DNA of 64,000 nt from Roseovarius salinarum (GTDB lineage: Bacteria > Pseudomonadota > Alphaproteobacteria > Rhodobacterales > Rhodobacteraceae). A program made the translations under genes and the position numbers. The stretch is taken from NCBI RefSeq assembly GCF_002834145.1, contig NZ_PHNT01000002.1, positions 219,909 to 283,908 of the forward strand. The letters run 5' to 3'. The first letter of the stretch is position 1. The number at the start of each line of letters is the position of its first letter. The notes under the pieces are model-generated. The model was not told the origin of the DNA and ran no database searches. It was given only the letters and a program-made list of their open reading frames with translations. Shown piece after piece: positions 25,814 through 64,000 of the stretch.

Positions 25814-25845
25814 AAACCCCGCACGGTCCGGACCGTGCGGGGTTT
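25814..25845. terminator. Bidirectional terminator between convergent genes
   Basis: A perfect palindrome, AAACCCCGCACGGTCC / GGACCGTGCGGGGTTT, centred at 25829/25830. It has A-runs and T-runs on both sides and serves the DUF882 gene (plus) and the cytochrome b gene (minus). Confidence 0.85.
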
Positions 25846-61080: not shown

Positions 61081-61308
61081 ATGTCTGACAGTCACGCCGA
61101 CCTCATCGTTCTGGGTGCCGGGCCGGGCGGTTACGCCTGCGCCTTTCGGGCCACCGATCTGGGGCGCAAAACCGTCATGGTTGATCCACGCGCCACGCTT
61201 GGCGGGGTTTGCCTCAACGCGGGCTGCATCCCCTCAAAGGCCCTTCTTCACGCCGCCGACGCGATGCGCGAGGCCCGTGACATGGTCGTGCCCCACGGGA
61301 TGGTGTAA
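61081..61308 (+). pseudogene. Dihydrolipoyl dehydrogenase (E3), truncated by an insertion sequence
   Basis: 75 codons of about 465. The FAD site [20 protein letters not shown] and the redox cysteines 44 and 49 ([20 protein letters not shown]) are intact. The frame then reaches a stop inside the left end of the IS256-like element. The downstream remainder is not found on the far side. The complex would need an E3 encoded elsewhere. Confidence 0.9.
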
Positions 61309-61617
61309 GAGGCCGCGCGCGGAGCCATTTGGCGTAGCGCAGCGCGCGGCCGTTCTGGCGGCCACCGCGCTTCTTCGTAGTCTGAGGTTGTTAAAAGACC
61401 GATGACAACGAAGGAGAGCACGATGACCGAGAGTGAGGCATGGGTCGCCATGGGTTCGAGAACCATGCCGAACGATCGACCTTCCCGGGGTGATCGCCAA
61501 GAGCGATGGTGAGACGCGACCGTGGCCGCAGATGCGGCCGCGCAAGCGTGTCGAACGATTTCCTGCGCGATTTGATCCAGGACGCCGCGCAGCGGCTGAT
61601 GGAATTCGACCGTGAAG

Positions 61618-61640
61618 CGATCGGTCCGGGGGACCGATCG
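61618..61640. repeat. Palindromic hairpin insert 1
   Basis: A 10-base perfect stem (CGATCGGTCC) with a GGG loop, inside an extra segment of about 38 bases that shifts the transposase frame. Confidence 0.75.
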
Positions 61641-62040
61641 TAGGTAGAATGAGGTGGCCGCCGTCTGCGGCGCAGGGCATGGCGAGCGCAGCCCGGACCG
61701 CGAGAACCAGCGCAACGGCTACCGACCGCGGCAGTGGGATACCAGGGCCGGCACCATCGGCCTGAACATCCCGAAGCTGCGCAAGGGCAGTTACTTTCCG
61801 ACCTTCCTGGAGCCGCGCCGGACGGCCGAGAACCGAAGGTCCGCGCGCAGCAGCGAAGGCGCTGATGGCGGTCGTACAGGAGGCCTACATCCACGGCGTC
61901 TCGACCCGCGCCGTCGATGATCTGGTGCGTGCCATGGGGCTGACGGGCACCTCGAAGAGCCAGGTCAGCCGGCTCTGCGAGGAGATCGACGAGCGGGTGC
62001 AGGCGTTCCTGAACCGCCCCCTTGAGGGGTCGAACCGCAT

Positions 62041-62065
62041 GAATTCGGTCCCCCGGACCGAATTC
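62041..62065. repeat. Palindromic hairpin insert 2
   Basis: An 11-base perfect stem (GAATTCGGTCC) with a CCC loop, so the core is the reverse complement of the others. Directly abuts insert 3 within one extra segment of about 65 bases. Confidence 0.75.
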
Positions 62066-62088
62066 CCGACCGTCCGGGGGACGGTCGG
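62066..62088. repeat. Palindromic hairpin insert 3
   Basis: A 10-base perfect stem (CCGACCGTCC) with a GGG loop, immediately following insert 2. Confidence 0.75.
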
Positions 62089-62629
62089 CGCGGTCGACGG
62101 CCCTTCCTGTGGCGCGACGCCACCTACGTGAAGCTGCGCGAGGGCGGCCGGATCGTCTCGATGGCCGTGATAGTGGCGGTGGCGGTCAACTCGGACGGAC
62201 GCCGCGAGATCCTCGGGATCACCGTCATGCCCTCCGAGGCGTTCACGGGGCTTGCGCGGCCGCACCGCGGCCACGGTCCCCGTTCACCGTTCTGGGCCGA
62301 CTTCCTGCGGTCTCTCACGCGTCGTGGGCTGCGCGGCGTGCAGCTGGTCATCAGCGACGCGCACGAGGGCCTGAAGGCGGCTGCCAGGAAGGTCCTGGGC
62401 GCCGGCTGGCAGCGCTGCCGCGTGCATTTTCGCTGCACGGCCCTTCGGGTCAGCGCAACCTCCTGGCCCGCGTGGGCAAGGCCAACAAGCCGGTGGTCAG
62501 CGCGGTGGTGAAAACCGTCTTCGCCGAAAAGGACCGCGACCAGCGCCATCCCCGCTGGCGCGAGGTGGCCGACAACCTTCGTGACCGGTTCCGGGATGTC
62601 GCCGAGCTCATGGACGGTGAGGGCGTCGA

Positions 62630-62654
62630 GCGATCGCTCCGGGGGAGCGATCGC
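62630..62654. repeat. Palindromic hairpin insert 4
   Basis: An 11-base perfect stem (GCGATCGCTCC) with a GGG loop, inside a 45-base in-frame insertion that adds 15 residues (EGVERSLRGSDRSPN) to the transposase. Confidence 0.75.
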
Positions 62655-63011
62655 AGCCCGAACGAGCACGACGTCCTCGCCTACATGGCCTTCGACGAGA
62701 GCCTGCGCTCGAAGCTGTACAGCACCAACCCGCTGGAGCGCGTCAACAAGGAGATCAAGCGCCGCACCAACGTGGTCGGCATCTTTCCCAACCGCGAGGC
62801 CGTCATCCGCCTGGTCGGCGCGCTCATGCTGGAGCAGAACGACGAATGGGCCGTCTCGCGCCGCTACATGCCGGTGGAAAAGCTGACGGCCGTGTGTAAC
62901 GATACCGACGCGGCGACAATGATCGCCGCACAGTGAACGAGCGACACCAGCCATGAAGAAGCAGGTCGACGCCAGTTCCTACACCACTTCACGGGACACA
63001 GCCCGTTGGCG

Positions 63012-63833
63012 CGGTTCATCCCCGCGTGTGCGGGGAACAGCATTGGATGGCGTGCCGGGACGTGCGGCCCGACGGTTCATCCCCGCGTGTGCGGGGAACA
63101 GGAGCCTCAAGCAAAGGGGTGCGGGCAATGTGGCGGTTCATCCCCGCGTGTGCGGGGAACAGGCGCCTGGATTTGAGCGATCATGCGTCACCCCCGGTTC
63201 ATCCCCGCGTGTGCGGGGAACAGAGGCACAGTTGAACCGCATGGCTGTTGGGTGTCGGTTCATCCCCGCGTGTGCGGGGAACAGTAGGCCTGCCCCTCGC
63301 GGTTCTCGACCTCGATCGGTTCATCCCCGCGTGTGCGGGGAACAGTCTGCCCGGTAGCCACTCAGCCTACCGCCTGCCGGTTCATCCCCGCGTGTGCGGG
63401 GAACAGAGCCACATCCGGCGGAAGGTTGCGTCGTCCACCGGTTCATCCCCGCGTGTGCGGGGAACAGCGACGCCCTCCCGTTCTGGTATGACAAACCCCC
63501 GGTTCATCCCCGCGTGTGCGGGGAACAGCGCCCGTGTGCGCCATCTTGTCGATCGTCGGCGGTTCATCCCCGCGTGTGCGGGGAACAGGTTGAACCACGA
63601 TAGCTCGCCACCTCCGCTACCGGTTCATCCCCGCGTGTGCGGGGAACAGATGAGCCAAAGCCGCCGCTGGGCCTCTGTCGCCGGTTCATCCCCGCGTGTG
63701 CGGGGAACAGCACGTTCGAGGAGATCAGGCCCTATGTGACCAGCGGTTCATCCCCGCGTGTGCGGGGAACAGGGGATGCGGAATGTATCACCCGTCCCGA
63801 TAGTCGGTTCATCCCCGCGTGTGCGGGGAACAG
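63012..63833 (+). CRISPR. Type I-E CRISPR array, 14 repeats and 13 spacers, no cas genes in view
   Basis: The 29-base repeat begins CGGTTCATCCCCGC and ends GTGCGGGGAACAG, the classic I-E type with a GC hairpin. Repeats start at 63012, 63073, 63134, 63195, 63256, 63317, 63378, 63439, 63500, 63560, 63621, 63682, 63744 and 63805, and all appear identical. Spacers are 32 bases except one of 31 (63529-63559) and one of 33 (63711-63743). By repeat orientation the leader should lie to the left. Only 26 bases separate the first repeat from the IS256 end, and they look like neither an AT-rich leader nor a repeat. The last repeat is followed by 28 bases and then an IS3-type end, probably a cut spacer. 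Confidence 0.97.
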
Positions 63834-63861
63834 AAGTCGCGCTGGGGGTAGACATTTTCCC

Positions 63862-64000
63862 TGATCTTGCCCCCGTTTCGCCGGACACTCAGGCGGTTGC
63901 GGTTTGAGCTGCGATGAACTCGCGGGGCGAGCGCCATTTCAGCCCTGAGTGCGGATGGTTCTCGTTGTAATCCTCGAACCAGCCATCGATCAATCCGAGC
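63862..64000 (-). mobile_element. IS3 family element (runs off the window)
   Basis: The terminus TGATCTTGCCCCCGTTTCGC at 63862, then CGGACA, resembles IS3-family inverted repeats. It lies just beyond the transposase stop codon. It interrupts the CRISPR array 28 bases after the last visible repeat. Confidence 0.75.
63889..64000 (-). CDS. IS3 family transposase OrfB, C-terminal fragment (continues beyond the window)
   Basis: The minus-strand frame to the stop at 63889 reads LGLIDGWFEDYNENHPHSGL, then KWRSPREFIAAQTATA. This is the conserved C-terminus of the IS3 OrfB integrase domain (the W-x-x-x-YN-x-x-RPH-SL region). The remainder lies outside the window. Confidence 0.9.
   Translation of the reverse strand, partial: LGLIDGWFEDYNENHPHSGLKWRSPREFIAAQTATA

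Follow-up and report, generated by a model that had tools for sequence, protein, structure and literature searches.

The window analysed here, a stretch of 64,000 nt from Roseovarius salinarum, ends with a broken insertion sequence (Table 1). The last 2.7 kb contain an IS256-family insertion sequence lying in an apparent dihydrolipoyl dehydrogenase gene (named by eye). Upstream of that gene, dehydrogenase and acyltransferase-like frames were recognized by eye. A Pfam match to PF00872 (Transposase_mut, IS256), read in pieces, assigns the transposase and thereby the host element to the IS256 family. The transposase gene is split over several frames. The neighbouring CRISPR array is presumably type I-E-like.

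Table 1. Coordinates of the interrupted insertion sequence, its inserts and its neighbours in the window
Feature	Position	Strand	Description
Dihydrolipoyl dehydrogenase-like gene (by eye)	61081-61300		interrupted by the insertion sequence after about 70 codons
Broken IS256-family insertion sequence	61284..63004	+	ends set by eye, by comparison with GGTAGTGYCCC / GGGRCACTACCC at the ends of relatives
Insert a	61433..61474	+	GTGAGG...CCGAACG, imperfect hairpin; missing in intact copies
Insert b	61509..61557	+	GTGAGACG...GTCGAACG hairpin insert; G288 copy (L047) has similar ends at the same site; fold z -2.5
Insert c, W family	61610..61652	+	CGTGAAGC-stem-TCCGGGGGA-stem-GTAG...; contains hairpin 61618-61640; fold z -3.3
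Insert d	61830..61854	+	25 nt, little structure; no family
Insert e	62029..62094	+	hairpins 62041-62065 (tip inverted, CCC) and 62066-62088; outer ACCGC/GCGGT stem; fold z -5.5
Insert f, Z family	62240..62288	+	CGTTCnnGGGGC...GGnCCCC..CACC; fold no better than shuffles (z -0.7)
Insert g	62430..62449	+	20 nt, little structure; no family
Insert h, W family	62617..62664	+	contains hairpin 62630-62654; adds 42 nt net and keeps the frame; fold z -3.1
CRISPR array	63013-64000		repeat GGTTCATCCCCGCGTGTGCGGGGAACA; begins a few bases past the end of the insertion sequence

A preliminary description of this DNA reported four perfect hairpins with a TCC-GGG-GGA tip, one of them inverted, in the one IS256 transposase gene. 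Scanning the window and 40 dinucleotide shuffles of it confirmed this. All four hairpins are perfect, with arms of 10-11 bp and a loop of 3 nt, and they are the sole TCCNNNGGA hairpins with a stem of at least 7 bp in the 64 kb. The shuffles yielded no hairpin of the TCCNNNGGA type (maximum 0) against the four observed, while any hairpin with a 10-bp arm and a 3-nt loop occurred 0.125 times on average (maximum 1), again against four.

How do these hairpins sit in the gene? Two related copies, L044 and L045, have a transposase open throughout (398 codons, counted in L044) and no inserts. In the alignment to L044, identity outside the inserts is 0.90, and the window copy carries eight inserts instead of the six originally claimed, those near 61433 and 61509 having been overlooked. 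The hairpins are indeed confined to three of the eight. The last insert keeps the frame as had been proposed; however, it adds 42 nt net, or 14 codons, and not 45 bases and 15 residues. The segments near 61838, 62238 and 62430 lack the hairpin core as described, but at least the one at 62240 belongs to another family, and its site is also filled in one copy of genome G199 (L072), where the inner stem is compensated. On the reference columns, the window copy has 398 codons and 0 stops, with three codons touched by small gaps. In a comparison of six copies, 13 coding substitutions are unique to the window copy; they fall on codon positions 1-3 as 5, 3 and 5, which is the pattern expected of a dead gene. 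The hairpin is only a part of an element of about 40 nt with its own ends, and the elements form several families, within which the ends are conserved and the stems vary.

A DNA search for copies of the insertion sequence in 295 genomes of the family gave matches in 46, with the window genome counted. The family was taken as Rhodobacteraceae since several of the loci are identical with named ones, such as L043 with L092 of Sedimentitalea. More distant IS256 copies (about 70%) were excluded from insert calling, and the alignment 'inserts' of L045/L098 and L080, which are neighbouring IS ends or copies, were left out of the counts. Among the 24 close named copies that were aligned (L076-L098, L126), 18 have no insert of at least 10 nt; three of these 18 have a 1-nt indel in the gene. 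Thus, the intact close copies do not carry the segments as normal coding sequence, and genome scans found the same hairpin design elsewhere; the idea of a mobile hairpin survived on both counts.

Insert-bearing copies were found in seven genomes among those aligned, including the window genome. The G288 copy (L047) has about 11 inserts, a Sedimentitalea metagenome-assembled genome has 2, an uncultured Jannaschia (L090) has 2, both of 42 nt, and G087 has 1 in a partial alignment. In G199, two copies have one insert apiece, one of the two being a partial alignment. Maritimibacter fusiformis has one insert in all four full copies (L093-L096), which all lie near contig ends and carry an identical 37-nt hairpin insert; a search of that genome found no intact close copy.

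The insert sets differ between sister copies and include the types X, Y, W and Z, and copies sharing a site carry the same family there. Sites b and c are filled in the window and G288 copies, site f in the window and G199 copies, site 487 by X in Sedimentitalea and G288, and site 634 by Z in G199 and Sedimentitalea. Site h holds W in the window copy and, with a different stem, in the Jannaschia copy; in G288 (L047) and M. fusiformis (L093-L096) it holds another hairpin type. Judged by eye, a diverged IS256 of Rhodobacter sp. CZR27 (L196) has an insert at site c as well. The stems differ and yet stay complementary: CGATCGG/CCGATCG in one copy and CAATCGA/TCGATTG in L047 at site c, GCGATCGC and CGATCGA at site h. 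The earlier observation that differing stems remain complementary around conserved parts is therefore real, according to the insert alignment and the arm-swap test given below. Flank similarity at the shared sites is mostly not raised (partner ranks 23/25, 23/25, 4/27, 4/27, 24/25, 13/26 and 10/27). Thus, common or old descent, repeated insertion and very short conversion tracts are inseparable here, while recent recombination as the source of the shared sites was rejected since flank identity is mostly not elevated.

The best-sampled family is X, which is found in sister copies and is absent from the window copy and, by pattern, from the window genome. The X pattern gave 111 matches in 53 of the 295 genomes, mostly 41 bp long and at most 7 per genome, and the reversed control pattern gave 0 matches in the same 295. 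An inner helix of at least 5 bp is present in 51 of 72 distinct X sequences, with 26 different stems. This share of 0.71 compares with a mean of 0.21 (maximum 0.41) when arms are exchanged between sequences and with 0.026 upon shuffling, i.e., the stem covaries. When similar flanks are collapsed into 45 distinct contexts, RTC lies immediately 5′ of X in 21 of them against a background of 3.6%. This is a preference, not a rule, and RTC could partly belong to the element, few sites having an empty relative. A G follows GAGAGG in 42 of the 45 contexts and is probably the element's own last base. In 29 of the 45 contexts X is 41 nt in length, and so the reading frame is broken.

Where does X reside? 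With one locus taken per genome, 26 of 30 loci lie in or at transposase genes; 19 of these were supported by Pfam on one frame each picked by eye, four of them scoring below Pfam's curated cut-off, and 7 were added by tblastn. By tblastn alone, like for like, transposases were matched at 23 of 30 X loci and at 0 of 14 control loci (p 1e-6), the control loci being a non-random choice at round coordinates in four genomes. One X locus, L220, has a weak tblastn transposase match, and at L208 an IS5-type remnant lies on one side of X and a DUF6638 gene on the other. No transposase was assigned at 4 of the 30 loci, among them L230, a stemless chance match that was kept in the 30. The hosts of X were classified by eye as IS3, IS5, IS21, IS256 and IS630 types, and IS30, IS110 and IS481 come in (by eye) through matches of X, Y and W on plasmids; 14 of the 15 plasmid matches opened, picked from BLAST lists, are within or beside transposase genes. 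In 25 loci judged by eye, X is oriented sense to its host in 10 and antisense in 15.

The cleanest case was found in genome G013, which consists of two contigs, one of 4.33 Mb. It has six full copies of a 1385-nt IS3, 99-100% alike, plus six partial matches. All six full copies share the same four X-type inserts, and a search of the genome found no intact copy of that IS3. The junctions were read against an intact 1231-nt Phaeobacter IS3, whose identity outside the inserts is only 0.82. Measured in this way, the inserts are 38, 40, 38 and 38 nt long, and each orientation is represented by two of them. These lengths equal the element lengths within 1 nt; thus, none of the four junctions examined has a target duplication. 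Among the six copies, 25 sites vary; 15 of them were placed in codons by hand, with 4 at third positions. An IS3 with several interruptions was thus amplified in G013, in the simplest view in trans. Several genomes have two or more near-identical X-bearing copies.

The other families are less bound to insertion sequences. The Y hairpin core was found at 38 places in 25 of the 295 genomes. Of 25 Y-core loci, 8 by tblastn and about 10 by eye are at transposase genes, and several others are at gene ends. For the W core, the stem pattern matched 16 places in 9 of the 295 genomes, and for this stem pattern the notion of W as a high-copy chromosomal REP was rejected. Of 12 W loci outside the window, 2 lie in insertion sequences by tblastn (both in one genome) and 3 by eye; others are at gene ends or in tandem arrays. 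Since W and Y hairpins also occur outside insertion sequences, nesting is strong for X and not for every family. By eye, one stretch of IS5 (GEGEW|KHGGPKRR) is occupied by Y at three loci and by W at two, and a phage-methylase-like gene of L157 contains, in frame and around position 1501, an insert that has Y ends but a W-like stem. In the window genome, TCCGGGGGA has 34 matches, tandem arrays on contigs C6 and C34 among them. These tandem TCCGGGGGA hairpins, whose outer stem ends in CGAACGGGCGGAGCCCC, lie at C6:76216 and 76279 (63 bp, two repeats) and at C34:113855, 113931 and 114007 (76 bp, three repeats).

It was assessed which enzyme might move the elements. Systems of the REP/RAYT kind had been named as comparable in idea to the hairpins. 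A REP/RAYT system is not supported: a Pfam search found no Y1_Tnp domain (PF01797, the RAYT/IS200 domain) in the window genome (G000) or in 42 of the 53 X-bearing genomes. The idea of a mobile hairpin itself agrees with the empty sites, the recurrence and the compensated stems. The domain is present in 11 of 53 X-bearing genomes as against 19 of 242 others (p 0.01), an excess that may just mark IS-rich genomes. At 16 Y1 loci fetched from the 30 positive genomes, no Y1 gene has repeats on both sides, and 15 of the loci have no X within the stretch fetched. The single case is L318 of G089, where one X lies about 560 bp from the Y1_Tnp gene. There, X occupies 1984-2021 and is the same as the X of L222, the Y1_Tnp gene occupies 2582-2941, and the end of an IS110-type transposase (by eye) lies between them. 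RAYT/Y1 as a required mobiliser was thus rejected, because the domain is absent from most X-bearing genomes and only one X lies near the 16 loci.

I consider it fairly probable that the eight inserts of the window are copies of several families of palindromic mini-elements of about 40 bp, which would move as folded single-stranded DNA and nest in insertion sequences. They are probably REP/RPE-like mini-elements moved as single-stranded hairpins by some enzyme. Movement as a single strand is suggested by the clean junctions, the target preference, the occurrence of both orientations and the covariation of the stems. The element may be excised or replicated in hairpin form and then inserted beside a short target by an enzyme. 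A dead, insert-laden insertion sequence might then be moved in trans by the transposases of related copies, with the hairpins carried along, and mismatch repair in the folded hairpin toward either strand might keep the stems perfect while their sequence drifts.

The abundance of X in transposase genes may reflect targeting, or these genes may simply be where inserts survive and get amplified. In the latter form, the elements would insert anywhere, would be lost again from DNA that is useful to the cell, and would persist in dead insertion sequences and be copied when these are moved in trans, with no targeting of transposases. This is a serious alternative, although I hold it to be somewhat more probably wrong than right. 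The neutral codon positions of the window-only substitutions agree with it, as do those of the 15 coding differences among the G013 copies, the mostly frame-breaking length of X, its two orientations and the near-identical X-bearing copies in several genomes. However, it predicts many intergenic X elements, and at most 4 of the 30 loci are without a transposase assignment. In addition, the window copy has as many as eight inserts beside its 13 unique coding substitutions. The targeting form can be put forward only tentatively. It holds that hyperparasitic hairpin families of about 40 bp in Rhodobacterales preferentially invade transposase genes, those of insertion sequences unrelated to one another (IS3, IS5, IS21, IS30, IS110, IS256, IS481 and IS630), as single-stranded DNA into a short target, disable them and spread with the disabled copies, so acting as a brake on insertion sequences.

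An immobile origin seems improbable for the W and Y inserts. They would be captured gene-end hairpins, i.e., a stop codon with a terminator-like palindrome, recombined into the IS genes. The hairpin is indeed common to the gene-end copies, several of which follow TGA by eye (C6, C34, L295 and L315), and Y starts with TGAGGAGG. It is very improbable that the inserts are tolerated at the level of RNA or translation, by byp-like ribosome bypassing or by splicing, with the gene functional. Some take-off and landing codons agree at sites c and h by eye, and in M. fusiformis the four full copies all bear an insert and no close intact copy was found. Nevertheless, X occurs in both orientations, the codon-position patterns are neutral in two cases, and the lengths vary and are often incompatible with a single frame, for which reasons translational bypass was dropped. 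Least credible of all is that template switching (quasi-palindrome correction) formed the palindromes where they now lie, while the gene decayed. The stems, perfect as they are and different at each site, would agree with this, but conserved ends and tips turn up again in genes and genomes that are unrelated, and the sites are empty in intact copies. Template switching after insertion could explain the perfection of the stems.

The nested mini-elements can be compared with several known systems. MITEs are likewise short, non-autonomous, folding mobile DNA. Here, judged on duplication only, the four G013 inserts differ from them in having no target duplication, and no parent insertion sequence with such ends was met in passing. 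Insertion sequences of the IS200/IS605 type (HUH) make no target duplication, insert 3′ of a short preferred sequence and have hairpins near their ends. Their ends and mini-derivatives resemble X, which shows no duplication at the junctions compared, often lies directly 3′ of RTC and has hairpins near its ends; however, the present elements are only about 40 bp long and, as noted, flank none of the 16 Y1 genes on both sides. REPs and REPINs with a RAYT (TnpA-REP) are hairpins of 20-40 bp with a presumed single-strand chemistry and one conserved end, as here. They differ in being high-copy and extragenic, whereas X has low copy numbers and is mostly not extragenic; a RAYT is lacking in the window genome, and none of the 16 Y1 genes is flanked by the repeat.

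Rickettsia palindromic elements (RPE) are described (PMC3733652) as short palindromes in ORFs, inserted in frame and with host proteins that are likely functional. RPE and REPs inside ORFs (PMC3733652) resemble the present elements in being palindromes within coding sequence of alphaproteobacteria, sometimes two per gene. In contrast to the in-frame RPE, the hosts here encode transposases of many IS families, and the frames are often broken: insertion is in frame in insert h, L090, L194 and L195 and out of frame elsewhere, including the window gene overall. According to PMC3733652, CGTC elements have only a few fortuitous associations with other transposase classes. Insertion sequences are also known to use REPs as their targets (Tobes and Pareja 2006, PMC1525189). 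Palindromic repeats are linked with insertion sequences in both cases, but there the insertion sequences enter REPs, while here the palindromes lie within insertion sequences. No report of palindromic mini-elements concentrated in Rhodobacterales transposase genes was found in the open-licence literature. The RepRanger paper (PMC12306157) does not mention Rhodobacter, Paracoccus, Roseobacter, transposase or insertion sequence, and the consulted part of PMC5082802 yielded nothing on inserts within genes.

If the reading as nested mini-elements is true, they would be among the smallest classes of mobile DNA, dwelling largely inside other mobile DNA, and would provide a record of IS inactivation. 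They would account for frame-broken transposase genes that annotation tends to drop. Their hairpin, which covaries, has defined ends and prefers a certain target, would be a handle for finding the enzyme. Under targeting, mobile elements would themselves have mobile elements, which would in practice serve as a natural brake on IS.

Some minor observations were made in the window genome. A second IS256 copy (L071, region C4:8869-9166), about 0.73-0.75 identical, is damaged by an internal duplication and small indels and not by hairpins. The motif AAATACTCCGGGGGAGTCGCC..GGCGACGGGGGCAG, terminator-like by eye, recurs in the genome (L007, L009, L010, L013, L014, L023, L025, L026, L031, L035 and L036). 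An Rfam search of L001 and L004 at relaxed E gave one match, which was rejected as far under its gathering score. The longest arm in the window scan, with loops of 0-8 nt allowed, belongs to a perfect 32-bp palindrome, AAACCCCGCACGGTCC/GGACCGTGCGGGGTTT, at 25814-25845.
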